Part shown: positions 1-50,830 of the stretch, piece by piece
Numbering within the stretch: position 1 is the first letter of the stretch
How the letters are laid out: the number at the start of each line of letters is the position of its first letter
Virus record (IMG/VR): IMGVR_UViG_3300037521_000133
Location: 1-50,830 of that record
Length of the DNA stretch: 50,830 nt
Direction: 5' to 3' (one strand)
From: a virus
Made by a program: the position numbers and the translations under genes
Notes under the pieces: generated by a model
The model's database searches: none
What the model was told of the DNA's origin: nothing
Seen by the model: the letters and a program-made list of their open reading frames with translations, nothing else

Positions 1-118
1 AAAAAGATTAACTAAATTATCCTATCTTTACGGTGTGTCTGGAAGCACAAATAAGAACTTTACAAATTCCCTCGATTAAGTGGTCTTCCAGACGCTTGGT
101 TGGGGGTTTTGTGTTTAA
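1..118. repeat. Terminal direct repeat, left copy
   Basis: These 118 bases are identical to 50713-50830. The base before the right copy is an A that has no counterpart on the left, so the identity runs to the window edge. The simplest reading is that the genome is circular or circularly permuted and the assembler left an overlap; a genuine short direct terminal repeat is possible. The repeat carries almost all of the structured leader of the first gene. Confidence 0.95.
23..30 (+). promoter_or_regulatory. Bacteroidota-type promoter -7 box
   Basis: TATCTTTA matches the TAnnTTTG-like -7 element of Bacteroidota promoters in seven of eight positions. It lies directly before the structured leader RNA of the methyltransferase gene. 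No clear TTTG -33 box is visible upstream across the junction. Confidence 0.5.
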
Positions 119-1554: not shown

Positions 1555-1968
1555 ATGGACAGAGAAATTAAGTTCCGAATGTGGGACATAGAAAATAAGC
1601 ACATGCACAACGATGTACAAAATGGATTAATGGCAGAAAAGGACGGTAAAATGGTTTTAGGTTGTTCGTTTGGAACTCTTTGTACTGATTCTGGAAATCA
1701 CATGATGCAATTTACAGGACTTAAAGACAAGAACGGTGCGGAAATATATGAGGGGGATATACTGAATGTAAAATTTGGTGATGGTGTAAACTCTTCTCGT
1801 CACGAACATAAAAACGTAGTTGTTTACTGGAATGCTGATCTTCGGTATTGCGTAAAAGGTGGGAACATATTATCCTATTCTTTTCCTACATCATTAATGG
1901 GGTATCATAAACCAGAGTATGAAGTAATCGGAAACATTCATGAAAACCCCGATTTGTTAACTAAGTAA
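1555..1968 (+). CDS. YopX family protein (paralogue 1)
   Basis: The 137-residue protein has the YopX layout: an N-terminal REIKFRMWD segment, a central [18 protein letters not shown] motif and a C-terminal VIGNIHENPDLL tail. YopX proteins are common in phages of Bacillota and Bacteroidota and their role is unknown. Two more members are encoded at 11149-11517 and 13447-13881. It starts after a 77-bp gap and is followed eight bases later by a promoter-like box and a large stem-loop. Confidence 0.85.
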   Translation: MDREIKFRMWDIENKHMHNDVQNGLMAEKDGKMVLGCSFGTLCTDSGNHMMQFTGLKDKNGAEIYEGDILNVKFGDGVNSSRHEHKNVVVYWNADLRYCVKGGNILSYSFPTSLMGYHKPEYEVIGNIHENPDLLTK

Positions 1969-1975
1969 AATTCAT

Positions 1976-1983
1976 TACCTTCG
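1976..1983 (+). promoter_or_regulatory. Promoter -7 box of candidate small RNA
   Basis: TACCTTCG fits TAnnTTYG and has the same TTCG ending as boxes at 22568 and 25952. It begins eight bases after the preceding stop codon, and no coding gene follows for about 570 bp, so any transcript would be non-coding. Confidence 0.4.
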
Positions 1984-2098
1984 TTCTGTTAGTTCTGCTG
2001 AAAGGCACGTCTCACGCTAACCAGACAATATAGATATTAGGGCTTAGGCTCAAATCAATATAGAAGGTTAAACACGTGAGACGGTTTAGCCTTTTTTT
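1984..2098 (+). ncRNA. Candidate small RNA / long stem-loop terminator
   Basis: The segment folds into one long stem: AGGC (2003-2006) with GCCT (2089-2092), CGTCTCACG (2008-2016) with CGTGAGACG (2075-2083), and TAACC (2018-2022) with GGTTA (2067-2071), ending in seven T. A promoter-like box lies just upstream. It may be an independent RNA of roughly 110 nt, or merely an unusually large terminator for the YopX gene. Confidence 0.5.
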
Positions 2099-2104
2099 AT
2101 GAAC

Positions 2105-2216
2105 AACAATTAGCTTTATCCGATGGCAGGTGGAATCGGGGCGTGTGGTTGCTCATCTTAGTGAATAGCACGATTCAATACTAAGGTGGCGTGGTTCAAA
2201 TCCACAACTAATTGTT
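2105..2216 (+). ncRNA. tRNA-like RNA element 1
   Basis: AACAATTAG (2105-2113) pairs perfectly with CTAATTGTT (2208-2216) like an acceptor stem. GTGG-TTCAAAT-CCAC (2191-2205) is a good T-arm with the canonical seven-base loop. CCGAT/ATCGG (2120-2124, 2135-2139) resembles a D-arm with GG in its loop, and CATCTTAGT/ACTAAGGTG (2154-2162, 2180-2188) forms a nine-bp arm. The element is about 112 nt, too long for a normal tRNA, and I cannot place a convincing anticodon arm. It shares GGTGGCGTGRTTCRAAT with the RNA at 29175-29377. It could be a degenerate tRNA, a tRNA mimic or another structured RNA. Confidence 0.45.
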
Positions 2217-2553
2217 CGTTTGTAAAAGCAGACCTAACATTCAATGTTGGTCGGGAGAGATTACCAGTAGCTTCATTGAATTATGTGTTACTATGGGGTC
2301 AAACAAAGCACAAACGATAGTATAAGGGTTGAAGTCGTAAGATTTGGTCGGAAGGTAATTTCCGTAACAGTTGCAACCAAGGTGAAGAACATTACTGTTT
2401 ACTTCATCCAATTGAAACGAGGGTGACGCTTACGTGTAAGTAAGGTTACAGTAAGAGTAAGAGAGGTTTAAAAGAGTTTGAAATAAAAGTTGTTTAGTTG
2501 TCTAACAACCACAGACAACCAAAATAAATAGGTTTAATTAAAAAAAAAGAGTT
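2216..2553 (+). other. Non-coding structured region upstream of 2554
   Basis: No open frame of note is present on either strand. Visible helices are TCGTTTGT (2216-2223) with ACAAACGA (2310-2317), enclosing GACC/GGTC plus AACAT/ATGTT (2231-2252). Further hairpins follow: CGGAA/TTCCG and a TGAAG/CTTCA stem. CATTCAATG near 2238 can also pair with CATTGAAT near 2273, giving an alternative fold. The region reads as tandem structured RNAs or a long leader for the gene at 2554. Confidence 0.4.
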
Positions 2554-5388: not shown

Positions 5389-5506
5389 AATAAATATTTT
5401 ACACACAATACCCCCACTAGGTAGCCGACTAGGAGTGGCATTCCACCGTGGGGATATTGTGCTTTTCTTAAAATTCTTTGTGAGTTCCTAGTCCACTTAA
5501 GATGCG
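5389..5506 (-). ncRNA. Structured 5' leader RNA, copy C (kissing-loop family)
   Basis: On the minus strand GTG (5496-5494) and CAC (5482-5480) close a loop containing GACTAGGA, which is exactly complementary to TCCTAGTC in a second loop (5434-5427). That loop is closed by GCC (5439-5437) and GGC (5426-5424) and caps a 14-bp stem formed by 5404-5417 with 5448-5461. Unpaired CACAAAG, GGAATGCC and GGCTA match copies A and B, while the paired segments differ from them but keep complementarity. Confidence 0.8.
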
Positions 5507-5514
5507 GCAATATA
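5507..5514 (-). promoter_or_regulatory. Promoter -7 box for leader copy C
   Basis: TATATTGC on the minus strand is the same -7 box as at leader copies A and B and is followed by a similar start region (CGCATC versus GGTATC). Confidence 0.6.
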
Positions 5515-10908: not shown

Positions 10909-11156
10909 TGTCGAAGCTGAAAGCAGTCAAGCACCTAGTAATCGAAATGGAGTTTCGGGATATGAGAGACTTCGATACGGCTATGGAGCAAATAAGAAAG
11001 CAAGTGCGAACTGGAGTCCAAGAATCAAAGCAAGTTCAGGATCATGTACGCTTTGAATATGGCATGTGCTACTTACAGGAATTCGATTGCAGAATAGAGA
11101 ATATTAACGGGGTTGAACATATTGTTATCCCATCAAAAATGAAAAGTTATGAGTAG
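10908..11156 (+). CDS. Hypothetical protein, 82 aa
   Basis: The start overlaps the nuclease stop (TAATG), and its own end overlaps the next start at 11149 by eight bases, so it sits inside a coupled chain. It is a small basic protein with an N-terminal strand and a helix. No family recognised. Confidence 0.6.
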   Translation: MSKLKAVKHLVIEMEFRDMRDFDTAMEQIRKQVRTGVQESKQVQDHVRFEYGMCYLQEFDCRIENINGVEHIVIPSKMKSYE

Positions 11157-11517
11157 AGAAAATAAATACAGAGCGTGGGATAGTAAGTACGAAAAGATGT
11201 ATTATTCGCATGGTGAAAATCCAAGAGTTAATTTGTTTCACGGGAAATGGGAAATAGATTTAGAAGGTGACAATGGCGACACTATTGGAACGGTTGAATG
11301 TGACGAAAAAACCTATCCACTAATGGAGTACATTGGATTAAAAGACAAGAACGGTGTTGAAATCTGTGAAGGTGATGTAGTTTTTGTTCCATACAATTAC
11401 ATAGGAAATCAGGTCGTCAGTTTTAACAAGGGAAAATATAATATTAGTAGTTACAATATTTCAAAGCTTAAAATAGTCGGCAACATTCACCAAGACCCTA
11501 AACTCCTAAAACAATGA
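11149..11517 (+). CDS. YopX family protein (paralogue 2)
   Basis: It has the same three hallmarks as the protein at 1555: KYRAWDSKYEKMYY at the N-terminus, IGLKDKNGVEICEGDVV in the middle and IVGNIHQDPKLL at the end. The middle of the protein diverges, so the three paralogues are old relatives rather than recent duplicates. Function is unknown. It overlaps both neighbours (8 and 4 bp), indicating coupled translation. Confidence 0.85.
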   Translation: MSRENKYRAWDSKYEKMYYSHGENPRVNLFHGKWEIDLEGDNGDTIGTVECDEKTYPLMEYIGLKDKNGVEICEGDVVFVPYNYIGNQVVSFNKGKYNISSYNISKLKIVGNIHQDPKLLKQ

Positions 11518-13302: not shown

Positions 13303-13335
13303 TTTGGAATTATCGAATTGTAATCAGTATATTGC
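13303..13335 (+). promoter_or_regulatory. Promoter of leader copy A
   Basis: TTTG at 13303-13306 and TATATTGC at 13328-13335 are separated by 21 bp, close to the Bacteroidota -33/-7 spacing. The 15 bases GTATATTGCGGTATC (13327-13341) are identical to 27916-27930. Confidence 0.65.
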
Positions 13336-13446
13336 GGTATCATAAAGTGGCTGGAAATCACAAATTTTTTATTGAGAGTAACCTGTATCAGAATGCCATT
13401 CCAGCGGCTACTGGTATAGGACTCTCAACGTTTAAAACATTTCATT
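13336..13446 (+). ncRNA. Structured 5' leader RNA, copy A (kissing-loop family)
   Basis: GTG (13347-13349) and CAC (13359-13361) close the loop GCTGGAAAT. GCTGGAA (13350-13356) is exactly complementary to TTCCAGC (13399-13405) in a second loop closed by GCC (13395-13397) and GGC (13406-13408). That hairpin caps a long stem: 13372-13379 with 13421-13428 (8 bp) and 13382-13391 with 13411-13420 (10 bp). Unpaired CACAAA, AGAATGCC and GGCTA are shared with copies B and C. The leader ends at the ATG of a YopX gene. Confidence 0.85.
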
Positions 13447-13881
13447 ATGAATAGAGAGGTTAAGTTTCGTGGAAAGCAAACATACGGTGGCTGGATTTAC
13501 GGTTATCTTTTTAAAGACATTCGTTCAAGGGGAGCGTTGGCATACATTATTAAAGCGGGATTTGTTCCAGCGGTTTCAATGCCTGTATCAAGATTTATTG
13601 AAGTCGATATTAAAACTATTGGACAGTTCACAGGATTAAAGGATAAAAACAACGTAGAGATTTACGAAGGTGATTATTTGGTAATAACTGGCGCAACAAT
13701 TAACGAATGGGACTTTGAAGGTGAGGTAGTATTTATTGACGGTACATTCTGCTTAAAATCTAAAAATCAACCTAAAAATAACACACATACTGAATGTGTA
13801 AAGATTTGGAATGATGGATCACACGACCATTACAGCCTAGAAATTATTGAATCATTTGAAATGGAGGTAAAAAAAGTGTGA
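13447..13881 (+). CDS. YopX family protein (paralogue 3)
   Basis: [20 protein letters not shown] at the N-terminus and [18 protein letters not shown] in the centre mark the YopX fold; the C-terminal IGNIH segment of the other two copies is replaced by a divergent end. It is the first gene after leader copy A and is followed after one base by the replication gene, so the leader may control the whole replication operon. Confidence 0.85.
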
Positions 13882-24390: not shown

Positions 24391-24398
24391 TACTTTCG
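24391..24398 (+). promoter_or_regulatory. Promoter-like box abutting a terminator
   Basis: TACTTTCG fits TAnnTTYG, but the terminator stem begins at the next base, so a transcript would start inside the stem. It may be a chance match. Confidence 0.25.
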
Positions 24399-24430
24399 AG
24401 GCTCCACAATAGTAGTTGTGGGGCTTTTTT
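24399..24430 (+). terminator. Rho-independent terminator
   Basis: AGGCTCCACAA (24399-24409) pairs with TTGTGGGGCTT (24416-24426) followed by T. It isolates the secreted-protein gene from upstream transcription. Confidence 0.85.
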
Positions 24431-24891: not shown

Positions 24892-24929
24892 AACCCTCAT
24901 TATTGATTTAATGAGGGTTTTCTTTTTTT
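24892..24929 (+). terminator. Rho-independent terminator
   Basis: AACCCTCATT (24892-24901) pairs with AATGAGGGTT (24910-24919) followed by a long T-tract. A further hairpin, GCCTCT/AGAGGC (24856-24874), spans the stop codon of the upstream gene. Confidence 0.9.
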
Positions 24930-27916: not shown

Positions 27917-27924
27917 TATATTGC
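27917..27924 (+). promoter_or_regulatory. Promoter -7 box of leader copy B
   Basis: TATATTGC, with GTTG 19-20 bp upstream (27894-27897) as a possible -33 element. The 15 bases 27916-27930 equal 13327-13341. Confidence 0.6.
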
Positions 27925-28041
27925 GGTATCTGAAGTGGCTTGCAAATCACAAAGATCTTAATTTTGAAACCCTTATACTGGAATGCCATGCAAGCGGCTA
28001 CTATATCTAGTGTAGGGGTTTTGACACGTAAAACAAGTATT
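27925..28041 (+). ncRNA. Structured 5' leader RNA, copy B (kissing-loop family)
   Basis: GTG (27935-27937) and CAC (27948-27950) close the loop GCTTGCAAAT. GCTTGCA (27938-27944) is exactly complementary to TGCAAGC (27989-27995) in the second loop, closed by GCC (27985-27987) and GGC (27996-27998). That hairpin caps a 15-bp uninterrupted stem, 27967-27981 with 28007-28021. Unpaired CACAAAG, GGAATGCC and GGCTA equal those in copies A and C. The leader ends at the ATG of a small membrane protein. Confidence 0.85.
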
Positions 28042-28245
28042 ATGGAAATAGTAGGAAAATTATTAGTAGGATTATTAGTAGCGTTAGGATTAAGTTTATT
28101 GGTTTCCCTGCCAGTTTATTGGTTGTGGAATTGGTTAATGCCTGAAATATTCGGTTTGAAAGTAATTACATTTTGGCAGTCTTTAGGGCTTTCGTTATTA
28201 TGTAGCCTACTATTCAAGAACTCAAGTAGCAGTAGTAACGACTAA
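28042..28245 (+). CDS. Two-pass membrane protein, 67 aa
   Basis: I start at the ATG at 28042, since the upstream frame lies within the leader RNA. Two membrane helices (residues 3-25 and about 42-58) surround LWNWLMPEIFGLK, a motif I associate with small membrane proteins common in Bacteroidota and their phages. Role unknown. It is the gene directly behind leader copy B. Confidence 0.7.
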   Translation: MEIVGKLLVGLLVALGLSLLVSLPVYWLWNWLMPEIFGLKVITFWQSLGLSLLCSLLFKNSSSSSND

Positions 28246-28960: not shown

Positions 28961-29136
28961 TAGAAGAGTTTGAGTTACTAAGCACCTATTTAAGTTGGTA
29001 CATCGACAACCTAAAGCCTGTAACCCTAGATTATCAACTAAAGGTATATGCTGAACACGGATACATCAACGAGGGTAGAACTCGACAACAGCTACCAAGT
29101 TTTGAACAATGGAAACAATTAACAACCGAATCCTAG
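28957..29136 (+). CDS. Small hypothetical protein, 59 aa
   Basis: A 59-codon frame starting at the ATG that overlaps the previous stop (ATGA). Residues look helical and aromatic-rich. It is the last coding gene before the tRNA-like RNA. Confidence 0.55.
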   Translation: MIEEFELLSTYLSWYIDNLKPVTLDYQLKVYAEHGYINEGRTRQQLPSFEQWKQLTTES

Positions 29137-29174
29137 ACGGTTTCTAGGTAACTAAGTAATAGGTTAAAACATAT

Positions 29175-29377
29175 GGGGATATGACAGGGAAATGTTCAGA
29201 CAAATACAGAGTAGCTTTTAGCTAAAGGAAATCTGTAGAAGTGATTTTGTCGATGCTTTACTTCCTTGGTGTCAAATGGGTGGCGTGATTCGAATATCAA
29301 ACTAAAGGTAATCACTTACTTTTGATTGTTATCGTATATCATTAGATCGGTTGAAGGTTCGATTCCTTCTGTCCCTA
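29175..29377 (+). ncRNA. tRNA-like RNA element 2, about 200 nt
   Basis: GGGGATA (29175-29181) pairs with TGTCCCT (29370-29376, two G-T), directly after a perfect T-arm GAAGG-TTCGATT-CCTTC (29353-29369): a true tRNA 3' half with discriminator A, then CTA rather than CCA. The interior is about 170 nt and has its own helices: TAGCT/AGCTA inside ACAGA/TCTGT (29206-29236) and AAGTGATT/AATCACTT (29239-29246, 29310-29317) enclosing GGTGGCGTGATTCGAAT, shared with element 1. TGACAGG after the acceptor recalls tmRNA, but the RNA is too short and I see no tag frame. It may be a reduced tmRNA, an interrupted tRNA or a mimic. Confidence 0.55.
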
Positions 29378-29384
29378 CTAAATT

Positions 29385-29413
29385 AAAGCGTGTCAGAAAT
29401 GATGCGCTTTTTT
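29385..29413 (+). terminator. Rho-independent terminator
   Basis: AAAGCGTGTCA (29385-29395) pairs with TGATGCGCTTT (29400-29410) over 11 bp, loop GAAA, then T. It ends the tRNA-like RNA transcript. The next 93 bases to the portal start hold no other feature I can name. Confidence 0.9.
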
Positions 29414-29506: not shown

Positions 29507-31255
29507 GTGTCACGAGAATTCATCGAACAGAAAATAGGATCACAATCGATTGCTGAGGCAAGACGACAACAGAAAGAACTCGCCTATTTTACCCAGTCAA
29601 GCATACAGCAACCAATTACTCAAGCGTATCTAAATCAATGGGTAGAGAAGGAATACGCGGGAAATGATGAGTTCCTAAACTGGATTAAAACGATATTTGG
29701 AGGTAACAACTTTTTATCGTTCTACAAGTATTTGAGTTTTCCAGTACCTTCAGCAAATATCGTAAACAATAAAATTCGACCTCAATTAGAAAGGGTTTTC
29801 TTCAGTGAAGATTCTTTTTTCAAATATACTATTAAGGGTCAACAGGTCGAAACGCCTGAAAGTCTCAATTTCGTTCATTTTGATCAGTGGATTTTAAACG
29901 CCATGATGTTTCGTCACAATGACATTCTTATTACCGATCTTGAGAAGATAAACACACCATTTCGAGATCTTATTTCTATTGATAATGTGGTGGCCTTGCA
30001 GTCATCAAAGAGTGTTATTGAAAGAATTGCGTACACGGCAGCAGTTCCAATCACAAAAGAAGACGGTACAGTTGACATGAGGAATGGTTTTCTCTACATG
30101 GATGACAAAGAGTACATCTTCTATGATGAGAAGGTTGAGCCAATTCTTACAGTTCCTCATGATTTAGGTAAATGTCCAGCGAATTATATTGTTCCTGAAC
30201 CATTTTCAGATGATGATATTGTGCGTAAATCAATATTCTCATTCGTCAATCCAAAATTAAAAGAATACAGTTTCTTGACAACACTACAGAGAATGACAGA
30301 CCCAAACGGTGTTGTTCCTGTAACGGCCATACTTAGATTCAAGGATAAAGGACAAGTTGATGGTGAAGCCGAAGATGTAGATTCTGTAGATAAAGCGCCA
30401 CCAACTCCCCTGTCTATTAGTAGCCAACAATCCAGACAACAAAGAGAAGTTGTAGGAAAAGAGAGCGAAACGCAAGCGGGAACGGTTATCGATGTAATAC
30501 CACGATTAAAAGAAGATGGTTCTATTGATTCAGCAGCAGTTCAGAATTATATCAAGTTCTATCACATGCCAGTTGAGTCGATGAAACACCTAAACGAGCG
30601 CATTCTACAAATAGAGAACGATATTATTCAATCGGTAACGGGTGACTTCAAGGAGCAAAACGAAGAGGCTCAGAACGAAAAACAAGTATCCAAGGGATTC
30701 ATAAGCAAAGAAGATGCGCTTAGAAAAGTGTCCAAAGGGATGTCCAGGATTAGAAAACTTTCCGATTTTGATATGTTAGCGTTAGAATTTGGTACGGAAC
30801 AAGTGACAAATGACGCATTCTATGGATCTGATTTCTTCCCTGAAACTCAAAATGAACTCTACAAACTTTTCGAAATAGCTCCAAACCCTATTGAGCGCAG
30901 AAATATTCTACTCAGATTAAGCCGAAATAAGAACAGGTTTAACAGAGACAAGGCAGAACGAGAAGAGATTTTGATAACATTGATGCCTTATTCAGCAGAT
31001 GTTGATTTTAATACGGCTGTAGATAATCAAAGAATCGATTCAATTAACTTTCAGTATTACACTAGATTTCCATATTGGATCGGAATATTTGAAGCGACCT
31101 ATGGAGACATAGTGATATTCTTTAATGACTTCCCTGAAGGAACGTCTAACGAAGCGAGACTAACATCAATAAACAATTTAATTAAGGATTTAATAACAAA
31201 AGCTGGAATACCTGAGCCACCGAAGCCAGAGCCAGTAAATACACCAACAACGTAA
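29507..31255 (+). CDS. Portal protein
   Basis: At 582 residues and directly before the scaffold/capsid cluster, this is the best portal candidate. It contains helix-rich regions and a segment (residues about 365-420) with a long stem-like helix (ILQIENDIIQSVTGD). The start codon is GTG. The C-terminus is proline-rich (PEPPKPEPVNTPTT). The portal forms the dodecameric DNA gate at one capsid vertex. The call rests mainly on size, gene order and fold impression. Confidence 0.6.
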   Translation: MSREFIEQKIGSQSIAEARRQQKELAYFTQSSIQQPITQAYLNQWVEKEYAGNDEFLNWIKTIFGGNNFLSFYKYLSFPVPSANIVNNKIRPQLERVFFSEDSFFKYTIKGQQVETPESLNFVHFDQWILNAMMFRHNDILITDLEKINTPFRDLISIDNVVALQSSKSVIERIAYTAAVPITKEDGTVDMRNGFLYMDDKEYIFYDEKVEPILTVPHDLGKCPANYIVPEPFSDDDIVRKSIFSFVNPKLKEYSFLTTLQRMTDPNGVVPVTAILRFKDKGQVDGEAEDVDSVDKAPPTPLSISSQQSRQQREVVGKESETQAGTVIDVIPRLKEDGSIDSAAVQNYIKFYHMPVESMKHLNERILQIENDIIQSVTGDFKEQNEEAQNEKQVSKGFISKEDALRKVSKGMSRIRKLSDFDMLALEFGTEQVTNDAFYGSDFFPETQNELYKLFEIAPNPIERRNILLRLSRNKNRFNRDKAEREEILITLMPYSADVDFNTAVDNQRIDSINFQYYTRFPYWIGIFEATYGDIVIFFNDFPEGTSNEARLTSINNLIKDLITKAGIPEPPKPEPVNTPTT

Positions 31256-33445: not shown

Positions 33446-34528
33446 ATGGCTTTATTAGATGCAACACAGTGGAATGATTGGCAAGACACATTCGCAACGA
33501 GCGATCAAAGATTCGCACCTCATGGTGTAGTCGATGTCTTCAAAGAATCCACTCCTTTTGCTAATTATATTTCAGCAGAAGCACGAGAAAGGCTGGCGAC
33601 TACTTCTTCTCTAAGAGAAGTGAAAATCCCAGTAATTAAAGAGCAAACGGTAACGGTTGTCGATACTCCTGGTTTCGAGTTTATTCCTGACAATCTTACA
33701 GAATCAGCAGAATACAGCTTTGTAGCGGTTGATTTCTTCTCTGGTTTCCGTCAATACAACTCACAGTATGCAAACAACACTATTGCAGCAGAGGAAGACA
33801 GAAACATTAAAATGACCAATATCGCTGATGCAATGGCAACGGCAATGGAGGTATTCGGAATCACGATCCTTGAGGCTAGAAAAACTCAAGTATTAGGCTT
33901 TACTGAGCAAGTAAATCACAGTGTAGGAGGTGGTACTTACGTGTTTAACGCGGGTACTGATACACTCGAAATCGACGAAGCAGCACAACAAGAAACAATG
34001 TTTGCTTCATTGACTGAGCTTATGCGTGCAAACAAATTGGGAGGGCAGTACATGTCTTTAGTTAGTCCAGCAGGATTGGCAACTCAAAAATTTGAAGCGC
34101 TTAAATTTGGTGAGAGCAATCAGCAAAACATTCGTGCGCTTGGTATGATTCCAGCGGAAGACATGCACAACTCTCACAGCCTTGCTCCAGGATCAGATAT
34201 TTTCAATGGCTTTTGGGTACGTAAAGGCGCTGTTGGTATTTATGGGAATTTCCCGTTCGACTTTAGAGCAGGAACAACATTGGCAGATCAGAAATGGTCA
34301 GTATCAGATGTAGAAATTGGGCCAACTCGAATGAGAGCGAATATCTACACTAACAAATTTGCGGCTAACGCAACTGGACTTGTAGGAACTGGAACGGACT
34401 CCAACCTTATCATGACGGCTGGTGAAGAAATGGCAATTTGGATTCGTGCTTATTATGTGTTTAAGTTCAACACAGATATTACATCGAGAGCAAATGATAT
34501 TGTCAAAATCAAAGGTTTAGCTGCTTAA
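33446..34528 (+). CDS. Major capsid protein
   Basis: The protein (360 aa) follows the scaffold and has the length and composition of an HK97-type capsid protein: a mixed alpha/beta N-terminal half (FKESTPFANYISAEARERL), a central domain and a C-terminal strand region (RMRANIYTNKFAANATG). No long N-terminal delta domain is visible, consistent with a separate scaffold. The call rests on gene order, length and sequence style. Confidence 0.75.
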   Translation: MALLDATQWNDWQDTFATSDQRFAPHGVVDVFKESTPFANYISAEARERLATTSSLREVKIPVIKEQTVTVVDTPGFEFIPDNLTESAEYSFVAVDFFSGFRQYNSQYANNTIAAEEDRNIKMTNIADAMATAMEVFGITILEARKTQVLGFTEQVNHSVGGGTYVFNAGTDTLEIDEAAQQETMFASLTELMRANKLGGQYMSLVSPAGLATQKFEALKFGESNQQNIRALGMIPAEDMHNSHSLAPGSDIFNGFWVRKGAVGIYGNFPFDFRAGTTLADQKWSVSDVEIGPTRMRANIYTNKFAANATGLVGTGTDSNLIMTAGEEMAIWIRAYYVFKFNTDITSRANDIVKIKGLAA

Positions 34529-50427: not shown

Positions 50428-50723
50428 GAAACGTTAACTTTTGGGAAGACTTCGGAATACACATTGAGATAATACTAGCAGGTGTACTTGGTGGTTTATT
50501 ATCTCTCGAAGATAAAAAGGGTCTTTCTACATGGGAGAAAATCGGTGTATTTATGTCAGGAGGTGTTATCAGTAACTATTTGACACCTATCATAGTAGAC
50601 TGGACAGGAATCGGACAAAATTACACGTATGGTTTAGCGTTTCTTCTTGGTTATACAGGATTAACAGGAGTCAAAATTCTTGTACTTTATATTCATAGGA
50701 AGTTTCTCAAGAAAAAAGATTAA
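50424..50723 (+). CDS. Holin-like membrane protein
   Basis: The 99-residue protein has three likely membrane helices (about 10-28, 40-58, 68-92), separated by short charged turns (SLEDKKGLSTWEK), and ends in RKFLKKKD, the charge pattern of holins. The endolysin is at 5568, about 5.5 kb further on the circle, so the lysis genes are not adjacent. The stop lies within the terminal repeat. Confidence 0.55.
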   Translation: MRNVNFWEDFGIHIEIILAGVLGGLLSLEDKKGLSTWEKIGVFMSGGVISNYLTPIIVDWTGIGQNYTYGLAFLLGYTGLTGVKILVLYIHRKFLKKKD

Positions 50724-50830
50724 CTAAATTATCCTATCTTTACGGTGTGTCTGGAAGCACAAATAAGAACTTTACAAATTCCCTCGATTAAGTGGTCTTC
50801 CAGACGCTTGGTTGGGGGTTTTGTGTTTAA
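50713..50830. repeat. Terminal direct repeat, right copy
   Basis: Identical to 1-118 (see the left copy). Here it holds the last bases of the holin-like gene and a second copy of the promoter and leader D. Confidence 0.95.

Follow-up and report, generated by a model that had tools for sequence, protein, structure and literature searches.

The 50,830-nucleotide stretch of phage DNA analysed here (the window, positions 1 to 50,830 of IMG/VR record IMGVR_UViG_3300037521_000133) carries, immediately ahead of a gene starting at 13447, two hairpins whose loops can pair with each other, which raises the question of whether this arrangement is a selected RNA fold and how it could serve the phage. The window record is a virus, a 50.7-kb Bacteroidota-type phage on a terminally redundant contig in which bases 1-118 recur as a direct repeat at 50713-50830. 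Judged by its terminase, portal and tail genes, it belongs with the flavobacterial-type siphophages, and the closest terminase found was that of Cellulophaga phage Nekkels_1 (56% identical). To our knowledge, little is known about the control of transcription in Bacteroidota phages.

Four Kissing-Loop Leaders in the Window

The original prediction held that four transcripts of this phage (copies A, B, C and D) begin with a GTG/CAC hairpin whose loop is complementary to that of a second, long-stemmed hairpin. All four complementary loop pairs were found in place, extending over 7 bp in A and B, 8 bp in C and 9 bp in D. The shared architecture consists of a P1 hairpin, an A-rich linker, a long P2 hairpin, a P3 cap and a kissing helix of 7-9 bp.

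In copy A (plus strand), the −7 promoter box TATATTGC at 13328..13335, with a predicted +1 at 13340, is followed by the GTG/CAC hairpin P1 with its loop L1 (13347..13361; kissing strand GCTGGAA, 13350-13356) and by P2 (13372..13428), formed by TTGAGAGT, CCTGTATCAG / CTGGTATAGG, ACTCTCAA together with an AAU/UA internal loop. P3 (GCC 13395-13397 / GGC 13406-13408) closes loop L3, which holds the second kissing strand TTCCAGC (13399-13405). Copy B, also on the plus strand, has the box TATATTGC at 27917..27924, P1 at 27935..27950 (kissing strand GCTTGCA, 27938-27944) and P2/P3/L3 at 27962..28024 (kissing strand TGCAAGC, 27989-27995). Copy C lies on the minus strand, with TATATTGC at 5507..5514, P1 at 5480..5496 (kissing strand GACTAGGA, 5493-5486) and P2/P3/L3 at 5404..5462 (kissing strand TCCTAGTC, 5434-5427). 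In copy D (plus strand), the box TATCTTTA occupies 23..30, P1 34..49 (kissing strand GTCTGGAAG, 37-45) and P2/L3 60..112 (kissing strand CTTCCAGAC, 85-93). Because bases 1-118 recur at 50713-50830, copy D spans the contig ends and is present twice, its second appearance (50735..50830, plus strand) being inside the terminal direct repeat.

The pattern of residues shared by A, B and C matched only these three elements in the window and nothing in 100 shuffles. The segments CACAAA, AATGCC and GGCTA are constant, as had been proposed, but they are not all unpaired: CAC makes up the 3′ side of P1, and GCC and GGC, which had also been taken as unpaired, pair with each other as the 3-bp helix P3 and so close the second loop. 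What is both constant and truly unpaired is the AAA that follows P1, together with the AAU/UA internal loop separating P2 from P3. Copy D belongs to the family by its architecture, which is kept, but not by AAUGCC/GGCUA, which are absent.

Further Copies in Other Phages

Covariance-model and pattern searches, proposed together with the original prediction, recovered further copies. The IMG/VR scans were performed with patterns or covariance models devoid of any kissing letters, and every real copy that they returned had a perfect kissing helix, each spelled differently. A promoter-plus-P1 pattern led to copy E in locus L008, situated between terminase and portal as copy B is, with the loops GACTGGA/TCCAGTC. 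Model R1, a covariance model without the pseudoknot, retrieved copy G from the L081 record with 45 bits; in this copy even P1 differs, reading GUAA/UUAC, and the kissing helix has 9 bp. When only the residues around the loops were fixed, the search of all IMG/VR produced four stretches (three distinct elements, one of them previously known), all four with a 9-bp kissing helix. A wider pattern matched 22 stretches, one of which (L266) was identical to another (L265); six of the 22, representing five distinct elements, had kissing helices of 7-9 bp and 16, mostly one repeated G+C-rich sequence, had 3 bp or fewer, with none intermediate. Model R2, trained on A, B, C, E and G alone, scored copies J, K and M at 59-74 bits. 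Kissing-loop leaders occur in other flavobacterial-type phages, mostly uncultured.

The GCC/GGC helix P3 closing the second loop is found in A, B, C, E, G, J, K and M, as is a GAAY...UAC internal loop between P2 and P3 (GGAU in G), and copies D, F, H and I have the architecture without the constant residues. Folding z-scores were −3.2 to −3.6 for A, C and D and −2.7 for B. Unconstrained folding recovered the P1-P3 helices in most copies; when the kissing loops of A-F were held unpaired, P1 and P2 formed in six of six and P3 in all except D, capped by a 5-bp helix.

Several searches returned nothing of the kind. Neither the first IMG/VR pattern nor a genome-contig pattern (58 loci) gave copies, none of their loci having the right kind of GCC/GGC-closed kissing loops. 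A portal-protein search with the window sequence alone found nothing, and a search with a portal alignment found extra phages but no new leader copies among them. Across 398 Flavobacteriales genomes, R2 detected no copy among the 11 candidates scored per genome, and the pattern gave a single match, which is chance level. Matches in Arachidicoccus were ordinary terminators, and L160 and other weak R1 matches were rejected on inspection. The Cellulophaga phages Nekkels_1, phi38:1 and phi17:2 contained no copies by model or structure scan. BLASTN of copy B against phage records also found nothing, since the leader sequence diverges too fast.

Covariation and Chance Controls

Covariation was strong in an alignment of eight sequences, more than the original four, that had been fitted to P1-P3 and not to the kissing helix. 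In these eight copies, the kissing helix was 98.2% paired, with double changes at six of its seven pairs, and P1 was 100% paired. The covariation score reached 0.55 compared to 0.22 in shuffles, none of 500 being as high, and slid controls gave about 0.1. Loop sequences differed in every copy: across 12 copies, each loop matched its own partner over 7-9 bp, none of the 132 cross-copy combinations reached 7 bp, and composition-matched shuffled loops reached 7 bp at a frequency of 0.004. The further copies and this covariation bear out the claim of a selected tertiary fold with covarying kissing loops, and the conserved RNA fold is almost certainly real.

We also scanned 2.8 Mb of phage DNA, in loci that partly overlap, for the structure behind −7 boxes. 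Fifteen matches scored −26 or better, whereas the six shuffles gave 0-2 apiece; a threshold of −22 yielded 26 matches in the phage DNA and 3-10 per shuffle, so weaker matches need individual support. Two of those at −26 or better (L288 +34429 and L110 +12426) appear to be chance matches within coding sequence, and L085 +13042 is a differently structured leader. The latter (L085, 13042-13159) is the portal gene leader of a related phage; it starts at a TATCTTTG box, closes with a hairpin resembling a terminator (AACCCTGTT..AACAGGGTTTTTT) that is followed at once by the ATG, and lies near the position corresponding to window copy B with a different structure.

Candidate Leaders in Cultured Phages

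The structure scan pointed to two cultured phages. Olleya phage Harreka_1 carries the architecture TATATTTG with kissing strands GTGGTGG/CCACCAC and a T7 tail, just upstream of gp54 and with a replication protein two genes further; Croceibacter phage P2559S has kissing strands GTGCAG/CTGCAC and a T7 tail. The Harreka_1 leader is located near 30070-30187 of NC_062748 and the P2559S leader near 33901-34000 of NC_018276. Their scores (−24.1 and −22.1, respectively) fall in the range where shuffles also yield some matches, and both were accepted because of the promoter box, the tail, the ATG and a common GAGUA...GAAA internal loop. They are very probably related elements. Their internal loop resembles a loop-E motif.

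The annotated start of P2559S gp48 (33955) falls inside the predicted leader (L288, 33911-34000); translation more likely begins at an in-frame ATG beyond the T7 tail, near position 34000.

Position of the Leader Relative to Promoter and Start Codon

The TSS map of F. psychrophilum puts the −7 box at −12 to −5 (PMC9723704), and the +1 of each copy was predicted by this rule. On this count P1 starts between +1 and +8 in 13 copies out of 15, the exceptions being F (+19) and H (+21). The last G or C of the P2 stem falls at predicted +72 to +101, mostly +80 to +92. T makes up 71% of the 8 nucleotides after P2 (85 of 120 positions over 15 copies), for which a binomial p of 1e-14 serves as a guide only since the copies are related. 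T counts in this tract were 2 of 8 in copy A and 4 of 8 in copy B; CCC...GGG stems followed by T-runs are present in G, J, K and M, and T-runs also in Harreka_1 and P2559S. The first ATG comes 10-64 nucleotides past P2 in 14 of 15 copies and 10-26 nucleotides past it in most, copy K having the distance of 64 and copy N no ATG nearby. As judged from these sequences, the leader is fixed in position relative to the predicted promoter and variable relative to the start codon. Given the median 5′ UTR of 24 nucleotides in F. psychrophilum (PMC9723704), kissing-loop leaders are unusually long.

The boxes of A, B, C and E (L008 4152, minus strand) are all TATATTGC and fit the TAnnTTGY motif (SM5), which in F. 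psychrophilum is most likely that of an alternative sigma factor (PMC9723704). Most other copies have sigma-A-type TAnnTTTG boxes.

Two copies show further peculiarities. Copy F has an additional 5′-terminal hairpin, CTGTCG/CGACAG, ahead of P1 (L140, 4162-4185). In copy N (L085, 3284, minus strand) a promoter is followed by hairpins with the kissing strands GGTCGAG/CTCGACC and by a T7 terminator, which makes it a candidate for a stand-alone RNA or an attenuator variant.

Genes Behind the Leader

Copy A precedes a YopX gene at 13447, a replisome organizer and a primase/helicase. Copy B lies 3′ of the large terminase gene; behind it come a gene for a small membrane protein, starting at 28042, and then portal and structural genes. 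A small membrane protein and then the portal also follow copy E. On the minus strand, three small genes in a row (5388 to 4310) stand behind copy C, and a methyltransferase gene beginning at 129 stands behind copy D. Elsewhere, the genes behind the element encode a replication protein and primase/helicase (G), a replication protein and DnaC-like ATPase (J), primase-polymerase-like proteins (K and M) and endonuclease-like, homing-endonuclease-like proteins (H and I). The gene names for G, J, K and M were assigned by reading the sequences; there was a weak match to the window primase/helicase for G, and matches to Cellulophaga phage primase/polymerase genes for K. Replication operons, behind five copies, are the commonest place, and in the window phage the leader has spread to operons beyond replication. 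With replication, structural, methyltransferase and homing-endonuclease-like functions, the downstream genes are not tied to one ligand or pathway.

Proposed Mode of Action

The leader probably controls the switching-on of phage genes. Its fixed distance from +1 and free distance to the ATG favour transcription over translation as the level of control, the unrelated downstream functions suit a device that acts on polymerase, and a general device fits the mixed gene content better than a metabolite switch does. The original prediction had suggested a ligand-sensing riboswitch, a 5′-end stability element or a regulator binding site; promoter anchoring and the terminator-like tail make a role in transcription at least equal to these. 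We therefore prefer, with a probability of about 0.4 on the sequence features at hand, a transcription-level device, either a cis-acting attenuator or a put-like antiterminator, that would act soon after promoter escape. The leaders form a class of cis-acting RNAs directly behind predicted promoters of Bacteroidota-type phages, and the RNA would fold while leaving RNA polymerase and act there. P2 may serve to pause or terminate polymerase close to the promoter, with P1 capturing the P2 loop; the kissing complex, perhaps aided by a phage or host factor, would then determine whether polymerase enters the operon, by the logic of an attenuator or put-like antiterminator. In this way a single device would serve the window phage in its replication, structural and methyltransferase operons as well as in one opposing operon. 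The weak U-tracts of A and B argue that P2 is no classical intrinsic terminator in every copy. A more specific version, in which an RNA-only, promoter-anchored device folds on polymerase and sets read-through of a promoter-proximal terminator, phage-wide and copyable between operons, is put forward tentatively. Against control of transcription stand several points: few terminators in the window are likely to need read-through, and the pair at 24.4 and 24.9 kb could be plain operon ends; the computed folds make evident neither an alternative antiterminator pairing nor a leader peptide; and U-rich, A-rich leaders are common in such AT-rich genomes.

The start of P1 at +1 to +8 in most copies would equally suit a 5′-end stability element, a fold that shields the mRNA from 5′-end-dependent decay or exonucleases and so raises operon expression. 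Such a role, which we regard as possible but doubtful, agrees with the functionally unrelated operons, early and late, that the leader heads and with a sequence that varies freely among copies while the fold is kept; however, a simple 5′ hairpin would suffice for it, leaving the kissing helix, the fixed position of P2 and the U-rich tail unexplained, and P1 starts late in F and H, with another hairpin coming first in F. Binding of a metabolite or of a phage or host protein that switches transcription or translation of the operon would account for the unpaired AAA after P1 and the AAU/UA loop beside a covarying scaffold, which are typical of a binding site, for the GAGUA/GAAA constants of Harreka_1 and P2559S, for the five replication operons and for the closeness of P2 to the first ATG in most copies. 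This explanation is unlikely, since one genome uses the leader for replication, structural, methyltransferase and other genes, unlike a metabolite regulon, the constant residues are absent from D, F, H and I, and the start codon is not the anchor, as K and N illustrate. The riboswitch for one metabolic pathway was downgraded because of the mixed downstream genes.

P2 and its U-tract would also yield a transcript of about 90 nucleotides, and copy N, with its promoter, kissing hairpins and T7 tail and no nearby ATG, is what would be expected if the leader were released as an RNA acting in trans or as a decoy, the downstream gene being reached by read-through. The ATG within 64 nucleotides in 14 of 15 copies and the absence of a common loop sequence that would point to one target make this improbable. 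Finally, inverted repeats near operon starts could bind proteins, and the repeats might act as DNA in protein binding, recombination, or as origin or packaging signals; we consider this very improbable, because it is the complementarity of the loops and not their sequence that is conserved, P2 contains G-U pairs, and the element always follows closely on a promoter box and is oriented with transcription.

Relation to Known RNAs

Consistent with the earlier statement that the pattern belongs to no named class, neither the window elements nor the eight loci holding further copies matched Rfam 15 at the gathering threshold, and the window elements had no match even with E up to 10. No described element of such form was found in the open-licence literature, and on its sequence characters we file the leader as a new family of cis-acting phage leader RNAs. 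In purine and guanidine-II riboswitches two hairpin loops also pair with each other. Purine aptamers have a closing P1 helix that encloses both hairpins, whereas the leader has no closing helix around them; guanidine-II riboswitches have short conserved ACGR loops, whereas those of the leader vary freely over 7-9 bp. Rfam found neither riboswitch at the leader copies scanned. The Pistol ribozyme has a 5′ hairpin loop that forms a pseudoknot with a downstream segment and an A-rich strand after P1, but its pseudoknot lies in an internal loop with the cleavage site and that of the leader in a terminal loop; it had no Rfam match in the window even with E up to 10. Flavo-1 RNA is an Rfam family, and gave no match in the window or the eight loci holding further copies. 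In flavobacteria it forms a structured 5′ leader whose function is unknown (PMC9723704).

Promoter-proximal attenuators and the late-gene terminators of phages, for example lambda tR′ with Q, resemble the leader in that a terminator-like hairpin near the start site gates a long operon; they differ in that the hairpin loop of the leader pairs with an upstream loop, and no Q-like protein was identified. The nearest working precedent for the proposed mechanism is the put RNA of phage HK022. The putL and putR elements are phage-encoded and cis-acting, have two stem-loops and occur in more than one copy per genome, putL lying just downstream of an early promoter; put, about 70 nucleotides long and known in lambdoid coliphages, binds the zinc-binding domain of the RNA polymerase beta′ subunit, which gives a precedent for a promoter-proximal two-hairpin phage RNA acting on polymerase (PMC9378689). 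The kissing-loop leader likewise has two stem-loops just downstream of a (predicted) phage promoter, but these are separated by an A-rich linker of at least 10 nucleotides and joined by a kissing helix. No kissing loop was seen in the description of put (PMC9378689), and architecture and absence from Rfam set the leader apart. No sequence relation between the leader and put was apparent.

Being portable between operons, promoter-anchored, strongly covarying and present in the cultured phages Harreka_1 and P2559S, the leader offers a testable handle. Control of elongation would make it an antiterminator or attenuator that is based on RNA and unrelated to put. With a stabilising or sensing role it would be a new leader RNA family all the same, and a candidate expression part for Bacteroidota, for which Shine-Dalgarno-based tools are lacking.

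Other Features of the Window

A possible independent small RNA lies at 1954-2104 (plus strand), where a TTG...TACCTTCG promoter-like box is followed by a structure with CGTCTCACG/CGTGAGACG arms that terminates in GCCTTTTTTT. The adjoining 2105-2550 (plus strand), about 450 nucleotides of noncoding sequence, contains a tRNA-like T arm (GTGGTTCAAATCCAC) and had no match with ARAGORN or Rfam. Neither program called anything at 29120-29400 (plus strand), a noncoding stretch that precedes the portal gene and has a tRNA/tmRNA-like 3′ part (GGTTCGATTCCTTCTGTCCCTAC). Two strong intrinsic terminators are located on the plus strand at 24398-24427 and 24892-24919. A TACATTTG promoter with a short leader comes after the second of these, so the kissing-loop leader is not on every window transcript.

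The window phage encodes three YopX-like paralogues (1555-1965, 11149-11514 and 13447-13878; phrog_98/8684), the third of which directly follows copy A. Copy G, in its own record, is immediately preceded by a YopX-like gene.
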